From Armatimonadota bacterium (GTDB taxonomy: Bacteria > Sysuimicrobiota > Sysuimicrobiia > Sysuimicrobiales > Humicultoraceae), in the NCBI GenBank assembly GCA_031459855.1, contig JAVKHP010000001.1, positions 1,889,842 to 1,953,841 of the forward strand: a DNA stretch of 64,000 bases, in the 5' to 3' direction. Within the stretch, counting starts at the first letter, position 1; the number at the start of each line of letters is the position of its first letter. A program made the position numbers and the translations under genes. Below, in pieces: positions 35,518 to 46,488 of the stretch. The notes beneath the pieces are model-generated. The model saw only the letters and a program-made list of their open reading frames with translations, was not told the DNA's origin and did not search any database.

Positions 35518-36513
35518 TCAGAGCAGCGCCCGCAGCACCCACGTGATCGCGGCGGCCACCAGCGCGCACACGGGGAACGTGAGGATCCAGGCCGTGACGA
35601 TCTCCAGCCCCACCCCCCAGCGCACGGCCGACAGACGCCGGATCGCCCCGACGCCCATGATGGCGGTGTTGATGGTGTGCGTGGTGCTCAACGGAATGCC
35701 CAACCGGCTGGCCACTTCGATGGCGGTGGCCGCGGCGGTCTCGGCGGCAAACCCCTGGTAGGGCTCCAGCTTCGTCAAGCGCATGCCCATCGTGTGCACG
35801 ATCCGCCAGCCGCCTAAGGCCGTGCCCACCCCCATGGTCAGGGCACAGAGGACGATCACCCACAGGGGGATGTGGAACTCCGGCAACACCCCGCCGAGCA
35901 CCAGGGTCAGGGTGAAGACGCCCATGAACTTCTGCCCGTCGTTGCTGCCGTGGCTGAAGGCCATGAACGCCGCCGACAGCACCTGCAACCTCCCGAACAG
36001 CCGGCGCACCGTCCCCAGGGGCGTGCGATGGCACAGCCACCCGATGGCCAGCATCAGCAGGAAGCCACCAGCGAACCCCAACACGGTGGAGAAGCCCAGA
36101 CCGATCAGGACTTTCCGCCAGCCCTCCCACAACAGCGCCTGTGGCCCGGCCGTGGCCAGGCCGGCGCCTGCCAGCGAGGCGACCAGCGCGTGGCTCTCGC
36201 TGGTAGGGAGCCCGTGCAGCCACGCCAGCGTGCTCCAGACGACGATGGCGACCATGGCGGCTGCGATGGTGACCGGATCGATCACCTGCGCCCGCACGAT
36301 GCCCGTGCCGATGGTGGCGGCCACGGCCGTGCCCGACATCACGCCGAGCACGTTGAGGACGGTGGCGAGGACGATGGCCGCCGACGGCGTCAGCACCCGT
36401 GTGGACACCACGGTGGCGATGGCGTTGGGCGCGTCGGTCCAGCCGTTCACGAACTCGGCGGCCAGGACCAGCGCCAGGACGGGAAGCAGCCCCAGAGGGA
36501 GGACGACCGGCAT
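35518..36513 (-). CDS. pit: Low-affinity inorganic phosphate transporter (PiT family)
   Basis: Membrane symporter of phosphate with H+ or Na+, 331 residues and about ten helices. Both PiT signatures are visible: EFVNGWTDAPNAIATVVSTR in the N-terminal half and FSHGSNDGQKFMGV in the C-terminal half, with STTHTINTAIMGVGAIRR. It lies 72 bp downstream of a DUF47 gene, its usual regulatory partner. Confidence 0.94.
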   Translation of the reverse strand: MPVVLPLGLLPVLALVLAAEFVNGWTDAPNAIATVVSTRVLTPSAAIVLATVLNVLGVMSGTAVAATIGTGIVRAQVIDPVTIAAAMVAIVVWSTLAWLHGLPTSESHALVASLAGAGLATAGPQALLWEGWRKVLIGLGFSTVLGFAGGFLLMLAIGWLCHRTPLGTVRRLFGRLQVLSAAFMAFSHGSNDGQKFMGVFTLTLVLGGVLPEFHIPLWVIVLCALTMGVGTALGGWRIVHTMGMRLTKLEPYQGFAAETAAATAIEVASRLGIPLSTTHTINTAIMGVGAIRRLSAVRWGVGLEIVTAWILTFPVCALVAAAITWVLRALL

Positions 36514-36585
36514 CAGCGGATGGCGCTGGGGCGGTCGGGCGGATCGACCACGCCGTGGGGCAATGGCCCGAGGCGACGGCGCATC

Positions 36586-37203
36586 CTACAGGTGCTTGGC
36601 CTGCATGCCCTCGAGCACGTGCGCCACGTGCTCGGCCTGATCGGTGGCTTCCTCCAGCGTCTCGTACAGTTCTTTCCACTTGATGATCTCGATGGGGTCG
36701 CCGCCGCTGGCGAACAGCTTGGCGATGGCCTCCCGCTGGACGTGGTCGGCCAGGTTCTCCAGCCGGTTGATCTCGCGCAGCGTGGCGGTCACCCGCTCCA
36801 GCCTGCGCAGGTCGCGGATCGCCTCGACGATCGCCTGACAGGCGCTGGCGATGATGTGGCCCAGCTCACGCGCCTCGGGCGTCGAGCGGTCGATGCGGTA
36901 GGTGGCCATCCGGGCCGACGAGGCCTCGATCCAGTCCAGCACGTCGTCCAGCTGCTTGGCCAGGGCGAAGATGTCCTCGCGGTCCAGGGGCACCACGAAG
37001 GTCCGGTTGAGCCGGTCGATGATGGCATGGGTGAGCTCGTCGCCGCGGTCCTCCAGGGCCTTGATCGCGGTCGCCCGGGCTTCCACGTCCCGGTAGTCGT
37101 CGAGCAACTCCTGCAGCGTGCGCGCGGCCTTCAACACGTTGTCTGCCGCCTGGTTGAAGAGGTCGAAGAAGATCTCCTCCCGCGGGAGCAGGCGCAGTAC
37201 CAT
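36586..37203 (-). CDS. DUF47/PhoU-like phosphate transport regulator
   Basis: A 205-residue helical protein of the DUF47 family (Pit accessory/TIGR00153-like): FFDLFNQAADNVLKAARTL, KALEDRGDELTHAIIDRLNR, FVVPLDREDIFALAKQLDDV and ENLADHVQREAIAKLF. Such proteins are encoded directly upstream of pit and are thought to control its activity; PhoU-like helices may bind metal clusters. AGGAGGG precedes the ATG. Confidence 0.92.
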   Translation of the reverse strand: MVLRLLPREEIFFDLFNQAADNVLKAARTLQELLDDYRDVEARATAIKALEDRGDELTHAIIDRLNRTFVVPLDREDIFALAKQLDDVLDWIEASSARMATYRIDRSTPEARELGHIIASACQAIVEAIRDLRRLERVTATLREINRLENLADHVQREAIAKLFASGGDPIEIIKWKELYETLEEATDQAEHVAHVLEGMQAKHL

Positions 37204-39613: not shown

Positions 39614-40015
39614 ATGCCACGCGTGCTGTTCGTCTGACACCACAACACCGCCCGCTCGCCGATGGCGGCCGCGCTCTTCAACGCGGTGGCCCCGGCGGGC
39701 TGGGAGGCGGGCTCCGCGGGCACGGAGCCCGGCGAGCGTGTGCGTCCCGAGGCGGTCGTGGCCATGCGCGAGGTCGGCCTGGACATCAGCGGGCACCGTC
39801 CCACCGCGCTGGCGGCGGCCCTGGGGCCCGAGGTGGCGCTGATCGTGGGCCTGTGCGCGGAGGAGGCCTGTCCGACGGTGCCCGGGGTCCCCAGCGAGCA
39901 CTGGCCGCTGCCCAACCCCGCCGGCGGAGGGCTGGACCGCTACCGCGCGGTGCGCGACGACCTCACCAGCCGGGTGCGCGCGCTGGCCAGCCGGCTGGCG
40001 ACGGAGGGACCCTGA
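39614..40015 (+). CDS. arsC: Thioredoxin-type arsenate reductase / LMW-PTP-fold protein with in-frame UGA at the catalytic Cys (probable selenoprotein)
   Basis: Read through one TGA (39635-39637), the frame encodes a complete 133-residue ArsC of the pI258/YwlE fold: MPRVLFV-U-HHNTARSPMA. The UGA stands exactly at the nucleophilic Cys of the C-x5-R-S phosphate loop (U8, R14, S15). Downstream are SAGTEPGERVRPEAV, LDISGHRPT and the redox Cys pair C81-x4-C86 (VGLCAEEACPTVP) before EHWPLPNPAG, as in thioredoxin-coupled arsenate reductases; the Asp before PAG is Asn here. A candidate SECIS hairpin follows the UGA. A nonsense mutation of Cys (TGC/TGT) is the alternative. ppa starts right after its stop. 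Confidence 0.75.
39646..39688 (+). promoter_or_regulatory. Candidate bacterial SECIS element
   Basis: Downstream of the UGA, CGCC (39657-39660) pairs with GGCG (39664-39667) around the loop GAT, whose G is 23 nt after the UGA, within the bacterial range. The stem extends by U-G and CG pairs with C-C mismatches. An outer CACCGC/GCGGTG helix (39646-39651 with 39683-39688) can close it. Bacterial SECIS elements have little sequence conservation, so this is only suggestive. Confidence 0.4.
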
Positions 40016-40501
40016 GTGGCCGGAGCCACGGTGTGGGCGTGCGTGGAGATCGCGCGCGGCAGCCGCAACAAGTACGAGTGGGACCCCGCCACGGGCCGCC
40101 TGCGCCTGGACCGCGTCCTGTACTCGCCGCTGCACTACCCCGCCGACTACGGCTTCATTCTGGACACCGTGGCCGAGGACGGCGACCACCTGGACGTCCT
40201 GATCTTCACCTACGAGCCGACGTTCCCGGGCTGCCTCGTCGAAGTGCGCCCCATCGGGGTGCTCAACATGCGCGACGAGAAGGGCATAGACCAGAAGATC
40301 CTGGCAGTCCCCGTCGGCGATCCACGCTTTGCCGGCGTGGAGGACCTGGGCGGCGTGCCGCCCCACTTCCTGAAAGAGGTCGAGCACTTCTTCACGGTCT
40401 ACAAGACCCTGGAAGAGAAGGCCGTGGAGATCTACGGGTGGGAGCCGGCGGCCGCGGCGTGGCGGCTGGTGGAGGAGGGGCGGGCGCGGTTCGGGCGATA
40501 G
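40016..40501 (+). CDS. ppa: Inorganic pyrophosphatase (family I)
   Basis: Mg-dependent hydrolysis of PPi, 161 residues from GTG adjacent to the arsC stop. Active-site phrases: RNKYEWDPATGRLRLDRVL, YPADYGFILDT, the metal-binding DGDHLDVL and DEKGIDQKILAVP, with HFFTVYKTLEEKAVEI near the end. The length is typical of bacterial homohexamers. Confidence 0.95.
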   Translation: MAGATVWACVEIARGSRNKYEWDPATGRLRLDRVLYSPLHYPADYGFILDTVAEDGDHLDVLIFTYEPTFPGCLVEVRPIGVLNMRDEKGIDQKILAVPVGDPRFAGVEDLGGVPPHFLKEVEHFFTVYKTLEEKAVEIYGWEPAAAAWRLVEEGRARFGR

Positions 40502-40703: not shown

Positions 40704-42119
40704 CTACTGGTCCTTCCACGCCCGGAGCCGCCGGAAGTTGCCGTAGACCTGGTCGCCGATCACCGACCGGGGATCCCAGGTGAAGGTGGTGCCCTGATCG
40801 AAGTCCACCGCTTTCGCGAGGATCGCGCCGTTGGTGATCTGCGCCTGGTCGAGATGGAAGCCGCCGTTGGGCACGATGAACGTGCCGGCGATCAGGCCCG
40901 ACTGGTTGAAGTCTACCGCGGTCCCGCTCGTGGAGACCACCTTGACCGTGAACCGGTGTCCTTCCACGGGCTCCTCAGCCGTCAACACCTGCGACTTCGT
41001 GCCAAGCACAGAGCGCTGGACCGTTCGCAGAGCGGTGCCGGAAGGCTCCAGGAGCCGGAGCTCGACCTTGCCCTGGCCTCGAATCTCCACCCGCGCGCAC
41101 TTGCCCACCTGGAGCGTCCTCATCTGGAACGTCACGGTCGCGTTGGGATCGCTGCCGGCGTCCAGCACCAGCGTGGCGCGCTGCGCCGGATCCGACGGGC
41201 ACGAGGAAGGGTTGCCCGGTGTGTCCTCCAGCGTCACCGCGCCGTAGTTCATGGCCGGGTTGGCGATGACCGTGCTCCCGCGGGGCACGGACAGCGGCGT
41301 GGCGCCGGGTTCGCCCCAACTTGGGAGCGCGACCGTGGGGCACACCGACCCGGCCGGCTGATTCGGTTTCGCGTGGCCCTCCACCTGGTTGGGGCACCCG
41401 CCGCCGTTGCACGTAATGGCGCCAACGGCCGTAGCGTCGCTGGTGAACTCGTTCACGGGAGTCGGGTTGGGGGTGCCACATCTGCCCCCGAGCCCGGGCC
41501 CGTCCGGGGCGGAGTCACAGATCGCCGCGCGATTGCTGGTGCTGGGACCGCTGAGCGTGATGGTACCGTTGCTGCCCACCGCGCCGTAGATCGTCACCTG
41601 CTGGTCGAGCGTCAGGCCATCGTACGCGCAGACGGCGTAGGTCCGCGTCACCGACGTCGTGCCCTCGACGACCACCGTGACCACGCGCCGGGGCTCCGGG
41701 ACCGTCAGGGTGCCGGTGGAGATGATCCGACGGTAGGCCGGTTCGACCGCGGCGCATGCGTTGGCACCCGGACGGCTCCCGTCCAGGCAGCGGACCTCCA
41801 CGGTGGCGGTGCCGATCGTGATGTTGCCGTCAGTAATGGGGACCGTCTCGCCCTCGTACCGGTCGGCCCCTTCGGTCTGCAGCCGCGCGATGGCGTAGTG
41901 CACGCCTGCTTCGGCCACGTTGAACACCTGGACGGCCTGCTGCTGGCGGATGCCAGCGGCCAGGTCGCTGCGGACGACGGCCATGACGCCCACGGTGACC
42001 ATCAGGATCAGCAGCAGGAACACCACCACCGAGAGGAGGGCCGCGCCGGGGGCGCCGCCGCGCATCGCGCGGCGGCGCCCCGCCACAATCGCCCCACGGA
42101 CCACACGCACCTGCGTCAT
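40704..42119 (-). CDS. PilX-like large pilus-assembly protein (quartet 3)
   Basis: 471 residues: a basic leader, then GAALLSVVVFLLLILMVTVGVMAVVRS and a helix QQQAVQVFNVAEAGVHYAIARL, the arrangement of PilX/GspK-like minor pilus proteins. The large C-terminal extracellular part is Cys-containing and beta-rich, unlike known PilX. It starts with ATGA overlap with the PilW-like gene and ends the riboswitch-controlled quartet 3. It differs from the other two PilX-like proteins of the locus in size and C-terminal sequence. Confidence 0.7.
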   Translation of the reverse strand: MTQVRVVRGAIVAGRRRAMRGGAPGAALLSVVVFLLLILMVTVGVMAVVRSDLAAGIRQQQAVQVFNVAEAGVHYAIARLQTEGADRYEGETVPITDGNITIGTATVEVRCLDGSRPGANACAAVEPAYRRIISTGTLTVPEPRRVVTVVVEGTTSVTRTYAVCAYDGLTLDQQVTIYGAVGSNGTITLSGPSTSNRAAICDSAPDGPGLGGRCGTPNPTPVNEFTSDATAVGAITCNGGGCPNQVEGHAKPNQPAGSVCPTVALPSWGEPGATPLSVPRGSTVIANPAMNYGAVTLEDTPGNPSSCPSDPAQRATLVLDAGSDPNATVTFQMRTLQVGKCARVEIRGQGKVELRLLEPSGTALRTVQRSVLGTKSQVLTAEEPVEGHRFTVKVVSTSGTAVDFNQSGLIAGTFIVPNGGFHLDQAQITNGAILAKAVDFDQGTTFTWDPRSVIGDQVYGNFRRLRAWKDQ

Positions 42120-42853
42120 GGGTTCGACTCCGTGTCCGATGGTGGCAACCACTCCGTGCCCGATGGTGGCAACCACCCGCTGCGGTCCGGGCGCGGGTTG
42201 CGCAGCATCACCTGCCGGGTGAATCGCTGGATCTGCGCGCCCGAGCGCCCCTGCTCGGCCCGCACCGTCAGGCTGATCTGCACCATGCGGATGCTCCGGA
42301 TCGCCTCCTCGTCCGCGGTGGGCACGGCGATCTCTCCGCCGCTGGGGCCGAAGTACCGGAAGAGCAGGCTCGTCACGACGACGGCGGGATTCGACACGTC
42401 CGCCGTCGTGGGTGCCCAGGCGGCGCACGCGCTGCGATCCTCGACGATGCGCCCGCCGTCGAGGCGGTAGCCCAGCACGATCACCTCGTCGCCCGCCGTG
42501 GTGTTGGTGTTGAAGATCTCGCCGGCCACGTAGAGCTGCGTCGCCGTCGGCCGCAGGGCCGGGTCCTTGGCCACCACCATGTCGTCGCAGCGGTCGGGCT
42601 GGGCGGCGGGATCGATGTACAGTCCCGCGTTGCGCAGCCGCTCGGACATCATCTCCAGCGCCTGGCGCGCGGTTTCGGTGTCCGACGATCGGCTGGCCAC
42701 GATCATCTTGCTGCGGACCGCCGCACCCACCAGGGTGGCAATCGTGCCGATCACGACGGTCATGATGACCATGGCCACCACGACCTCGACCAGCGAGATT
42801 CCCGCCTGTGCGCGGCACCTCGGTTGCGTCGGGTTCATCCTCGTGCTCCTCAT
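42116..42853 (-). CDS. PilW-like type IV pseudopilin (quartet 3)
   Basis: 245 residues with a type III prepilin signal: AG before ISLVEVVVAMVIMTVVIGTI, with the conserved Glu at +5. After the helix comes ARQALEMMSERLRNAGLYIDP, the PilW-type signature, and a beta-rich C-terminal part. Overlaps both neighbours by ATGA. It would be a minor pilin of the initiation complex at the pilus tip. Confidence 0.78.
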   Translation of the reverse strand: MRSTRMNPTQPRCRAQAGISLVEVVVAMVIMTVVIGTIATLVGAAVRSKMIVASRSSDTETARQALEMMSERLRNAGLYIDPAAQPDRCDDMVVAKDPALRPTATQLYVAGEIFNTNTTAGDEVIVLGYRLDGGRIVEDRSACAAWAPTTADVSNPAVVVTSLLFRYFGPSGGEIAVPTADEEAIRSIRMVQISLTVRAEQGRSGAQIQRFTRQVMLRNPRPDRSGWLPPSGTEWLPPSDTESNP

Positions 42854-43305
42854 GGGTAGTCGAAGCTCGCCACGTACGTGACGAGGATCGTGTAGGGTGG
42901 CGAGGTGGGTGTCTGGTAGAGGCGCACCGTCATGGACTTCAGGGGGATGCCGCGGGTCGCGGTCAGGTCCTCGACGACGACCTCGGCCCGGTCGAACCCG
43001 TCGGGGATCCGTGGCTCCTGCAGGTCGCCGTTGGTCAGGTAGCCGTCGGTGGGCACGGTGCGGGTGCCGGGTACCAAGCCGTACCCCATGGTCCGCAGGA
43101 AGTCGAGCTCGGCCTGGACCCAGGCGGCGGCCTGCGCGCGGTCGAAGCCCCGGCGGGTCTGGGTCATGGTGAACAGCAAGCCGCCCAGCGCGGTCGTGGC
43201 CACCAGGGACAGCACCGCCATGGCCACGACGACCTCGATGAGCGTGAACCCGCCCGGTCGCCGCTCGTACCGGCCGGGCCGTCGCGCGCGCCAGCGCTCA
43301 CTCAT
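42850..43305 (-). CDS. PilV-like type IV pseudopilin (quartet 3)
   Basis: 151 residues. Prepilin peptidase site RRPGG|FTLIEVVVAMAVLSLVATTA, Glu at +5. The segment AWVQAELDFLRTMGYG is shared in character with the two other PilV-like proteins here (VQAEMEYLQ, AQAEMEYLRG). It overlaps the PilW-like gene by ATGA and the FimT-like gene by 8 bp. Confidence 0.78.
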   Translation of the reverse strand: MSERWRARRPGRYERRPGGFTLIEVVVAMAVLSLVATTALGGLLFTMTQTRRGFDRAQAAAWVQAELDFLRTMGYGLVPGTRTVPTDGYLTNGDLQEPRIPDGFDRAEVVVEDLTATRGIPLKSMTVRLYQTPTSPPYTILVTYVASFDYP

Positions 43306-43825
43306 TGACGGTCACCCGGCCCGTGCTGGCCTGGATCCTGATCGTGTAGGTCTTGCCCGCCCGTGCACTCGTCAGCGTCACCGTGGCGGCGCCGTCGGGC
43401 ACGCCCCGTCGGTCGAACCTCACCGCCTGCAGCGTCGAGCCGAAGCTGATGTGGGCCGGCAGGTCCTGGGTTCGCAGGGTGCCGGCGCGGACGGCAACCA
43501 CGGTCAACGTCTGGTTTTGGAAGGAGACCGTCACGGTGGTGCGCCGTGTCATCGCCTGCTGCTGGGCAGCAGTCAGCTCAGCAGCCACCGCCTTGGCCCA
43601 CCCGTCCAGCTCCTCGCGGGCCATGGCCCGGCTGATGCCGCCCACGCTAAGTGACAGCACCAGCAGGCCGATCGCCGCGACGATCATCAGTTCCAGGACA
43701 GTGTAGCCTGGCTCGCCGGACCTGCCGGGGAGCCAACTCCGGCCTGACCACTGTTGGATGCCGTGCGGGAAGGACGTACTCGCCCCCGCGCCTGGCTGCG
43801 CGGGGTCACAGGAGGTACCACGCAC
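43298..43825 (-). CDS. FimT/GspH-like type IV pseudopilin (quartet 3)
   Basis: 175 residues. Prepilin site PG|YTVLELMIVAAIGLLVLSLS, followed by ELTAAQQQAMTRRTTVTVSF and ending TIRIQASTGRVTVNE, typical of GspH/FimT pseudopilins. The long leader (about 39 residues) follows from GTG 43825, the only start with a ribosome-binding site (GAGGGG, 6 nt away). It is first gene after a c-di-GMP-I riboswitch. Confidence 0.78.
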   Translation of the reverse strand: MRGTSCDPAQPGAGASTSFPHGIQQWSGRSWLPGRSGEPGYTVLELMIVAAIGLLVLSLSVGGISRAMAREELDGWAKAVAAELTAAQQQAMTRRTTVTVSFQNQTLTVVAVRAGTLRTQDLPAHISFGSTLQAVRFDRRGVPDGAATVTLTSARAGKTYTIRIQASTGRVTVNE

Positions 43826-43834
43826 TGTTTTCCC

Positions 43835-43930
43835 CTCTTCGGCAGCTCAGCCGACCCGGGATGCCGGGTCCTGGTGCTTTGCGCCCGCCGGATCGCTCCG
43901 GGGTGGCCTTTGTCGGAGGAGCCCTGAGAA
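43835..43930 (-). ncRNA. c-di-GMP-I (GEMM) riboswitch upstream of quartet 3
   Basis: On the minus strand: CTCCGACAAAGGCC, then P2 stem CCGGA-GCGA-TCCGG capped by a GNRA tetraloop, the conserved GGCGCAAAGC core, P3 with CCCGG/CCGGG arms, and GGCTGAGCTGCCGAAG at the 3' end. This order and the tetraloop are hallmarks of the c-di-GMP-I class. It lies directly before the RBS of the first pseudopilin, so it probably controls translation or readthrough from the upstream quartet. Confidence 0.85.
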
Positions 43931-43961
43931 CGTTGTGCCCGTTCGGCCGCGGTTCTAGACC

Positions 43962-45821
43962 TCAGAACACCTCGCGCCAGCGCGCGATCACGATCCCGAA
44001 GCCGGGCTCGACCAGCGCAGCGACGCCCGGCGGGAGGTTGGCCTTCAGGCTGGCGACGGGATAAATGGACGGGTTGTTGTCCCAGTCCAGCAGGCCCGCA
44101 ATGAACATGCCGTACCAGGCCTGCGGGTTGTCGTTCTTGATCGTACCGTGGGCCAGCACCACCAGGTTGAGCTCGATGCCCGACCCCTTGATGTAGGCAC
44201 CCCCGCCGGTCGGCGTGCAGATCAAGGATCCCGAAGGCGGGGCGCTGGTGCACTTGGGCCCGACCGCAAAGGCGTAGGTGTCGCCGCTGGGCCGGCCGAA
44301 GGTCTGGGTGCATGTGCTATCGCTCGCCCGACACAGCGGCGTGACCGACCCCCGGATCTCCAGGGCGGGGGTCGGCGCGGTGGCGTCGTCGGCGTTCTCG
44401 ATGAGGAAGGTCGTGCGGCCAGCATAGCGCACGTCGCCGTCGATCCGCACGTGCGACTGGATGTGGATGTACGCGTCGTCGCCCGACTGTGTCCACAGGT
44501 TGACCTGGGTCGCGGGCGCAAACCCGTTGTAGACGAGCGAGAAGTCGTCGGTGTCCTTGACGTCGTCGGTGCCCGCAGCGGCGTCGCAGATCGCGGGCGT
44601 CGCCGTGCAGTTGATCACGGGCGACCCGTCTGGGTTACGGTCGGGAATCACCACACGGGTACGCGTCGGGGTGCTGGCCGACAGCCGCAGCAGCGACGCC
44701 GCACCGGGCCCCCAGATACGCACCGCCGTCCAGTCGCTGGCGGAGGTACAGGTGGCCTTGGTACACACGTAGGCCGTGTGGGCGTTGATGGGCGTGATGC
44801 GGCCGCTGCCAGACCAGTCGAGCCGGTTCAGCAGACACCGCGGCGGGTCGCCGGGCGCTCCCGGCTCGCACAGTTTCGAGGGGTCGGGGAACGGGACGAA
44901 GGGCACCGTGGCGCCCTTGTCGAGCGCGTCGATCTGGGCGTCGTAAGCGCTGGCCCAGCCCCGCGTAGCGTAAACGCCCTGCATCGGTTGGGCGTCGAGG
45001 CCGATCTGCCACGAGTTGCCCTCTCCCTTGACCTGCCCGACCACGTAGACCCGGTTGTTGTAGGGTGGCGTGGTATCCGGATCGCCCGGCGTGGGGTAGG
45101 GCACGTCGTTGAGGATGGCGCCGTTGCCCTGCATCTTCAGGCCGACGCACGGGTCGCCGCCGTCCGCACTGCACGACGCGATGTACAGCGGGCCGTGTAA
45201 CTGGAACGTGCCGTTGCCGCCACCGCCGGCACCGACGTTGATGGGACTGGCCGAGTAGTTCGCCAGGTCGTAGCCCGGCGAGATCTGCCCCAGCAGGAAC
45301 TCGATCTGCCGTGAAGCGAGGCCGGCGATGCGGCCCGTGGCCCGGACCCAGATGCACACGCTGGGCGTGCACCCGGGGACGGCGGGCGAGGGCACGCCGG
45401 GGCATCCGGTACCGTCGCTGAAGTTGTCGTCCCGACACAGCTCCACGGTGACCGTGCCGATCGAGGTCCCTGGAGGAAACGGGACGGCGACCAGGTCGGC
45501 ACTCCCGTCCCACAGCGCCGCCCACTGCCGGGCCGCGGCCAGGTTCTTCGTCGCGCCCGCCGTCGCGCCGGCGTCGGTCCAGTCGAGGTCGCGCTTGAGC
45601 TCGTAGATGGCCTTCTCCAGGCCGGCTTCGGCCAGCTGGAACGCCTGACGGGACCGCTCGCCGCCGGCCGCCGCCTGGTACTCGTTGAGCGCGATCGCCA
45701 CCAGCGTCGCGGTCACGATCAGGATGACGTTGATGGTCAGGAGCACGACGGCCAGCGCCAGCCCGGCCTCGCCCCGACGCCCCTGCCTTGCCCGCATGCT
45801 CTCTGCGTGTGCCTGGCTCAT
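43962..45821 (-). CDS. PilX-like large pilus-assembly protein (quartet 2)
   Basis: 619 residues. N-terminus GEAGLALAVVLLTINVILIVTATLVAIALNE (hydrophobic helix without a +5 Glu, as in PilX), then RQAFQLAEAGLEKAIYELKRD. The extracellular part is Gly-, Cys- and beta-rich (GAGGGGNGTFQLHGPLYIASC) and closely parallels the PilX-like protein of quartet 1 (GAGGGGNGTFRLHGSLYVASC), showing duplication. Such Cys pairs suggest disulfides in an exported adhesin-like tip protein. Confidence 0.72.
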   Translation of the reverse strand: MSQAHAESMRARQGRRGEAGLALAVVLLTINVILIVTATLVAIALNEYQAAAGGERSRQAFQLAEAGLEKAIYELKRDLDWTDAGATAGATKNLAAARQWAALWDGSADLVAVPFPPGTSIGTVTVELCRDDNFSDGTGCPGVPSPAVPGCTPSVCIWVRATGRIAGLASRQIEFLLGQISPGYDLANYSASPINVGAGGGGNGTFQLHGPLYIASCSADGGDPCVGLKMQGNGAILNDVPYPTPGDPDTTPPYNNRVYVVGQVKGEGNSWQIGLDAQPMQGVYATRGWASAYDAQIDALDKGATVPFVPFPDPSKLCEPGAPGDPPRCLLNRLDWSGSGRITPINAHTAYVCTKATCTSASDWTAVRIWGPGAASLLRLSASTPTRTRVVIPDRNPDGSPVINCTATPAICDAAAGTDDVKDTDDFSLVYNGFAPATQVNLWTQSGDDAYIHIQSHVRIDGDVRYAGRTTFLIENADDATAPTPALEIRGSVTPLCRASDSTCTQTFGRPSGDTYAFAVGPKCTSAPPSGSLICTPTGGGAYIKGSGIELNLVVLAHGTIKNDNPQAWYGMFIAGLLDWDNNPSIYPVASLKANLPPGVAALVEPGFGIVIARWREVF

Positions 45822-45858
45822 GGCGACCTGCCCTCCGACGGCAGCACGGGGATGTGCG

Positions 45859-46488
45859 CTACTGGACCCGGTTCCGGAGCACGGCGTCCATGGTGAACGT
45901 GACGTCCGCAGCGGCCTCGAAGGCGCCCGAGCGGTTGGAGTCCAGCCCCAGCACGATCCGGACCCGCCGGATCTGCGAGAGGGCGCTGGTCGAGGCCTCC
46001 TGCCCGTTGAAGTACGCGAACTGGAGGTAGGAGACGCGCAGCGCGTGCAGGCCCTGCGAGGTGATGGGAGCGCCGGTACAGGCACCGCCGGCGGACAGCG
46101 GCAACGCCGCGGGCTCCTGCAGGTCCTCGCGCACCACGCCCGCGGCGCTGTCGTGGCAGTAGCGGCGCCACTCGACGACGCCGTCGCCATTGGTGTCGCC
46201 GAGGAACGCCAGCGCCGAGGAACCGGCCTCGGTGAAGAACGCGGTGGTGCCGGCGGGCACACCGATGCCGGCGAGGCGGATGCGCCGTGTCATCCACTCG
46301 AGCACCAGGCGGGCGTTCTGGTGTTCGTCGGCCATCTCCTTGCCGGCCACCAGGCCGCGGTAGCTGGCGTTGAACGCCGCGAAGCCCGTGAGCAGGACCA
46401 CGCCGAAGAGGCTCAGCGCGACCAGCAGCTCCAGCAGGGTGAACGCCCGCTCTCCCTGGCGCCGCGGCGGTCTCAGACGTCGCTCCAT
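45859..46488 (-). CDS. PilW-like type IV pseudopilin (quartet 2)
   Basis: 209 residues with prepilin segment A|FTLLELLVALSLFGVVLLTG and the downstream motif HQNARLVLEWMTRRIRLAGIG, nearly identical to NQNARLVLEWMVRRIRMAGFG in quartet 1. The residue before the helix is Ala, not Gly, which is tolerated by some prepilin peptidases. Transcribed between the PilV-like and PilX-like genes. Confidence 0.78.
   Translation of the reverse strand: MERRLRPPRRQGERAFTLLELLVALSLFGVVLLTGFAAFNASYRGLVAGKEMADEHQNARLVLEWMTRRIRLAGIGVPAGTTAFFTEAGSSALAFLGDTNGDGVVEWRRYCHDSAAGVVREDLQEPAALPLSAGGACTGAPITSQGLHALRVSYLQFAYFNGQEASTSALSQIRRVRIVLGLDSNRSGAFEAAADVTFTMDAVLRNRVQ

Follow-up and report, generated by a model that had tools for sequence, protein, structure and literature searches.

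The frame at 39614–40015 of the window (the whole 64,000-nucleotide stretch of DNA analysed here) very likely encodes a selenocysteine (Sec) form of the thioredoxin-type arsenate reductase (ArsC), which would detoxify arsenate brought in by phosphate transporters. This reading builds on a UGA codon conserved among relatives, a complete Sec machinery, the predicted fold, three catalytic positions and linkage to phosphate-transport genes, all of which are read from the genomes themselves. Sec at codon 8 is close to certain on this evidence, and an arsenate reductase that employs it is highly probable. It is also likely that the gene represents an unlisted selenoprotein family, i.e., an arsenate reductase of the LMW-phosphatase fold with a selenolate nucleophile, which goes back to one ancient replacement of Cys by Sec in a single bacterial lineage, is genetically linked to phosphate uptake, and carries an unusually long, conserved mRNA structure extending to about 90 nt past the UGA. 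The features are collected in Table 1.

Table 1. Coordinates of the putative selenoprotein gene, its mRNA elements and its neighbours (window numbering)
Feature	Position	Strand	Remarks
arsC-like gene, putative selenoprotein	39614..40015	+	133 aa via UGA; ATG 39614, stop TGA 40013-40015
In-frame TGA, codon 8	39635..39637	+	proposed Sec at nucleophilic Cys of C-x5-R loop
Candidate minimal SECIS	39650..39668	+	stem 39652-39656 with 39664-39668; loop G 39661, 24 nt past UGA
Alternative longer stem, RNAalifold consensus	39650..39708	+	39650-39656 with 39702-39708 and inner pairs
Second conserved mRNA hairpin	39711..39728	+	39711-39716 with 39723-39728; 98.9% of cells paired
C81, counterpart of first resolving Cys (C82, pI258 ArsC)	39854..39856	+	15/15 invariant; aligned
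C86, counterpart of second resolving Cys (C89, pI258 ArsC)	39869..39871	+	15/15 invariant; aligned
Inorganic pyrophosphatase gene, directly downstream	40016..40501	+	PF00719, 180 bits
PhoU_div (DUF47) gene, Pit transporter partner	36586..37203	-	PF01865
Pit-type phosphate transporter gene	35518..36513	-	PF01384 PHO4, 295 bits

Translation with TGA read as Sec (U) gave the protein MPRVLFVUHHNTARSPMAAALFNAVAPAGWEAGSAGTEPGERVRPEAVVAMREVGLDISGHRPTALAAALGPEVALIVGLCAEEACPTVPGVPSEHWPLPNPAGGGLDRYRAVRDDLTSRVRALASRLATEGP, in which the codon 8 TGA is the sole internal one; as the initial annotation had described, it stands in place of the loop Cys with the frame intact on both sides, and the remaining ArsC elements, including the redox pair C81/C86 and HWPLPNPAG, follow in the read-through translation. 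Standard ORF calling returned only 39662–40015 (117 aa), the truncation that had been anticipated; if the Sec reading is right, such annotation would cut the gene short in all of the genomes. The read-through protein was searched against the 43 genomes of the order (a phylum-wide search gave the same 43), and orthologues with 57–71% identity were found in 14 further genomes, each with exactly one internal TGA. This TGA is located at the identical codon in 15 of 15 sequences, within the motif [LV]F[VL]-U-xxN-x-ARS, and the sequences span three families and ten genera of one order. The codons of other invariant residues vary silently (Gly79, GGC/GGA/GGG; Leu80, five codons); codon 8 is TGA throughout. 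On the 5′ side of the UGA, too, residues are kept while their codons change silently (Phe6, TTC/TTT; Val4, three codons), and therefore the upstream part is translated. Judging from this alignment, the conserved UGA frame is neither chance nor decay, and close relatives, in which signs of decay would have pointed to a pseudogene, retain both the UGA and an intact frame. It is hardly credible that the gene is a pseudogene or reflects a sequencing error, or that a shortened protein is made from Met17 onward with the preceding codons untranslated. An in-frame ATG at 39662 would indeed give a product of 117 aa, but that product would be missing the first strand and one half of the P-loop, and with them the core of the fold, while a start codon is situated seven codons ahead of the UGA in nearly all sequences, the residues flanking the UGA on both sides are conserved although their codons differ silently, and the TGA is common to 15 separately assembled genomes.

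A genome-wide search for selA, selB, selC (tRNA-Sec) and selD, as suggested with the initial annotation, recovered the complete set in the window's genome: tRNA-Sec (66 bits; assigned as SeC with the anticodon TCA by ARAGORN), SelB (349 bits), SelA (549 bits) and SelD (388 bits), with selA adjoining selB and tRNA-Sec about 2 kb off. The selenophosphate synthetase SelD of this genome is itself predicted to be a selenoprotein, as its frame contains a TGA, in CAGUASK, where Sec usually stands (G000:C1:1149867-1150790, minus strand). Two marks of a bacterial selenoprotein are thus present, a UGA at a Cys position conserved across species and a host with tRNA-Sec, SelA, SelB and SelD. Among the 43 genomes of the order, SelB was found in 31 and SelA in 34. 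At least one of SelA, SelB and tRNA-Sec is present in 14 of the 15 genomes with the UGA-type arsC, and SelB in 12 of them; of those without SelB, G021 has SelA, G019 has a tRNA-Sec match of 70.6 bits that ARAGORN confirmed, and G005, the sole one without a match to SelA, SelB or tRNA-Sec, is an assembly that is 69% complete. Two SelB and two SelA matches per assembly were observed in G028 and G029, which may reflect duplication or contamination.

Decoding of the UGA by a near-cognate tRNA, or its reassignment to another amino acid, is very improbable. A UGA alone does not specify the residue, nor does covariation prove a SECIS; against this, the complete Sec machinery and the Sec-type SelD are present, the UGA falls exactly on the nucleophilic Cys, a position at which Trp, Arg or Gly would give an inactive protein, and the silent sites downstream of it are fixed as described in the following paragraph. 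Furthermore, the arsC-like gene itself terminates at UGA, which argues against a general reassignment. Pseudogene formation, code reassignment and truncation were all rejected in view of the shared TGA, the conserved flanks, the UGA stop and the Sec machinery.

In the UGA-type genes, silent sites on the 3′ side of the UGA are all but frozen: Ala13 is GCC in 15 of 15, Arg14 CGC, Ala18 GCG and Pro27 CCG in 14 of 15 each, and Ser34 (TCC), Ala35 (GCG) and Thr37 (ACG) are each uniform in 15 of 15. These codons show 0–1 changes on the tree, against an average of 3.2 for the full set of codons of invariant residues, whereas the Cys-type homologues of the same order have mixed codons at these sites (Ala13, GCG/GCC; Arg14, CGC/CGG/CGA; Ser34, five; Ala35, four). 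It is well supported by these codon comparisons that the mRNA downstream of the UGA is constrained beyond the protein that it would encode. The candidate SECIS put forward in the initial annotation is plausible as a minimal hairpin, although its loop G lies 24 nt past the UGA (alignment column 27) rather than the 23 nt given there. Over the 15 sequences, 94.7% of the cells of this hairpin (columns 18–22 with 30–34) are paired, as compared with 31–77% when the pairing is slid; there is no covariation, its columns hardly varying, but the frozen codons of Ala13, Arg14 and Ala18 are in its favour. RNAalifold applied to 105 nt gave a different arrangement that brings the frozen sites together in a long stem (columns 16–22 with 68–74) and a second hairpin (columns 77–82 with 89–94), in which 95.9% of the cells pair versus 30–50% when slid. 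The covariation score exceeded those of all 500 shuffles, which ignore relatedness, and double changes are few; in the second hairpin, one C–G to G–C double change (pair 78–93) occurs in three sequences. The frozen codons of Ser34, Ala35 and Thr37 are accounted for by this second hairpin. Single-sequence folding of segments of 56–61 nt gave weak z-scores. Altogether, the putative SECIS region has conserved stems and frozen silent sites with little covariation and two alternative stems, and the silent-site data agree better with an RNA structure that extends to about 90 nt past the UGA than with the minimal hairpin. The second frozen hairpin, about 75–95 nt past the UGA, is beyond the range of usual bacterial SECIS models.

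The predicted protein belongs to the Pfam family LMWPc (PF01451; 73 bits; cut-off, 23.2), and its matches are confined to models of LMWPc and of LMW-type ArsC, with none for glutaredoxin-like ArsC or Spx. The ArsC models PRK13530, TIGR02691 and TIGR02689 all match below their cut-offs (TIGR02691, 62.8 of 174.3 bits; PRK13530, 70.5 of 215 bits), and the protein is, from its sequence, probably a relative working like ArsC outside the curated TIGR02691 and PRK13530 families. In the AlphaFold model (pLDDT, 95), the best PDB matches by Foldseek were the ArsC structures of S. aureus pI258, A. fulgidus, B. subtilis and C. glutamicum (TM-score, about 0.8), with YwlE and tyrosine phosphatases ranking behind them. 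The nucleophile U8 and the two resolving residues Cys81 and Cys86 are invariant in the UGA clade (15 of 15) and align with Cys10, Cys82 and Cys89 of pI258 ArsC. Such a redox pair is a mark of ArsC rather than of phosphatases. Several UGA-type members have another residue in place of the general-acid Asp. Asn101 of the window protein occupies the site that is Asp in most ArsC, a deviation to which the initial annotation had drawn attention; the substitution is real, but it is not unique, being found in other UGA-type proteins and in A. fulgidus ArsC (ENPAG; PDB ID, 1y1l).

In comparison with the thioredoxin-coupled ArsC of S. aureus pI258 and B. subtilis (PDB IDs, 2cd7, 1lju and 1jl3; TIGR02691, PRK13530), the window protein has the same LMWPc fold (TM-score, about 0.84), an x-x5-R-S loop with Asn, two resolving Cys, and the D/N-P-A-G motif, whereas it differs in the predicted Sec nucleophile, in the Asp that is often Asn in the UGA type, in the overall identity (30–33%), and in the spacing of the resolving Cys, which are 5 apart (CAEEAC) instead of 7. 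The solved structure of highest identity (41%) is that of A. fulgidus ArsC, in which CEESSC resembles the CAEEAC spacing; this protein and archaeal homologues (e.g., L060 and L105) have a Cys nucleophile, and the function of 1y1l is a structural-genomics annotation. LMW protein tyrosine and arginine phosphatases (Wzb, YwlE) share the Pfam LMWPc superfamily and the P-loop with the window protein, but match it more weakly in structure and sequence, have no resolving Cys pair, and have no listed Sec form. The glutaredoxin-fold Sec-ArsC (COG1393, TIGR00014, NF041106) are likewise predicted selenoproteins of the same named reaction (PMC2398784, PMC13188914), although with an unrelated fold, the motif UxxS or UxxC, and an independent origin of Sec. 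UGA-containing ArsC had been said to be predicted before, which is correct for the glutaredoxin fold (PMC2398784, PMC9312934, PMC13188914) but not for the LMWPc fold. An inventory from 2022 contains Sec-ArsC of the glutaredoxin fold only (PMC9312934), as does that from 2026, which comprises 119 prokaryotic selenoprotein families and has no PF01451 entry (PMC13188914). Text searches of the literature found no selenoprotein of the LMW-phosphatase fold, though supplementary lists could still contain one. Selenoproteins and ArsC are both known; their combination in the LMWPc fold is absent from the two inventories, against which the earlier suggestion that a selenol would be new chemistry for this fold stands.

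A tree of 105 proteins places the UGA-type sequences in a single clade (support, 99/87), with one origin in 98% of the bootstrap trees, and beside this clade stand Cys-type proteins from the same order along with archaeal Cys-type sequences. Alignment to homologues demonstrated that Cys forms exist at the UGA position: outside the UGA clade, Cys is the nucleophile in the homologues read, and a contig scan with the ARSQMAE pattern gave only Cys among the matches listed. Within the 43 genomes, the UGA type occurs in 15 and a strong Cys type (E about 1e-16 or better) in 17, with no genome having both, for which P is about 5e-5 if the two are independent, a figure inflated by the kinship of the genomes. 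The two types look like alternatives for one job.

Arsenate enters cells through phosphate transporters, and phosphate transport genes are located near the UGA-type arsC in 13 of the 15 genomes. Pit and PhoU_div genes lie upstream on the opposite strand in five of them, including the window's (35518–37203), where coaBC and coaX lie between these genes and arsC, and Pst and/or PhoU genes are found within about 2.5 kb in eight genomes. Phosphate genes were absent from the stretch read in two genomes of family f4 only, one of them at a contig end. The pyrophosphatase gene also follows the UGA-type arsC in three other genomes (G007, G009 and G010). In the sister family f5, the Cys-type arsC is placed directly after pstB-phoU, with the PhoU match ending within about 15 nt of the arsC match at several loci. 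The Cys-type gene is apparently the last of a pst-phoU-arsC cluster there (L048, L051, L052, L054 and L055). An earlier study has described syntenic ars and phosphate genes (PMC3834237).

The same neighbourhood would also suit a real selenoprotein of the LMWPc fold other than an arsenate reductase, e.g., a phosphatase or a selenol oxidoreductase of phosphate metabolism, since the superfamily includes tyrosine and arginine phosphatases and the linkage to phosphate and pyrophosphatase genes is also compatible with a phosphate-related phosphatase; the unconserved general-acid Asp and the missed ArsC equivalog cut-offs point in this direction as well. We nevertheless regard such a function as unlikely, because the Cys81/Cys86 redox pair is invariant, ArsC proteins provide all of the best matches in structure and in sequence, the UGA type is never in one genome with a strong Cys-type ArsC, and the Cys type occupies the same pst-phoU slot in the sister family.

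For the preferred Sec-dependent arsenate reductase, we infer arsenate as the substrate, the redox partner, Sec insertion and the SECIS boundaries from the comparisons above, and the following cycle may be proposed. Sec would be inserted at the UGA of codon 8 by SelA, SelB and tRNA-Sec, aided by the mRNA structure just downstream. If the reaction runs as in pI258 ArsC, the selenolate of U8, held in the P-loop with Arg14, would attack arsenate to form an enzyme–Se–As adduct; Cys81 would then attack U8, releasing arsenite and leaving a Se–S bond, and Cys86 would form the Cys81–Cys86 disulfide, to be reduced by thioredoxin. This is the known mechanism of pI258 ArsC with Se replacing S at the nucleophile. 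Arsenate entering via the neighbouring phosphate transporters would thereby be detoxified, and the arsenite could be methylated by ArsM or exported. If true, both a new fold and a new chemistry, selenolate attack on arsenate, would be added to the selenoproteome, Sec use would be tied to arsenic and phosphate, and the UGA and Cys types would provide naturally occurring Sec/Cys pairs with which to study the benefit of selenium to an enzyme.

As to the fate of arsenite, no ars efflux gene was seen beside the UGA-type arsC. For Acr3, the window's genome gave no match above the cut-off, and four genomes of the order have Acr3; with only a weak match in the window's genome, Acr3 as the arsenite exit was considered unsupported. 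ArsM-type genes are present in 40 of the 43 genomes, some of them with one TGA, including the window's genome. In the latter, a gene resembling arsM whose frame holds one TGA is located outside the window (G000:C1:1733278-1733880, minus strand), and similar genes occur in about ten relatives; it probably encodes the Sec-type arsenite methyltransferase already known. Sec-type ArsM is among the listed selenoprotein families (PMC13188914). In family f3 (L170, L171, L173 and L174), ModA/ModB-like or MFS_MOT1 molybdate transport genes lie upstream of the UGA-type arsC. In the window itself, the pyrophosphatase gene is followed by a run of type IV pilin/PilX-like genes on the minus strand (40704–46262), as seen from ORF translations only.
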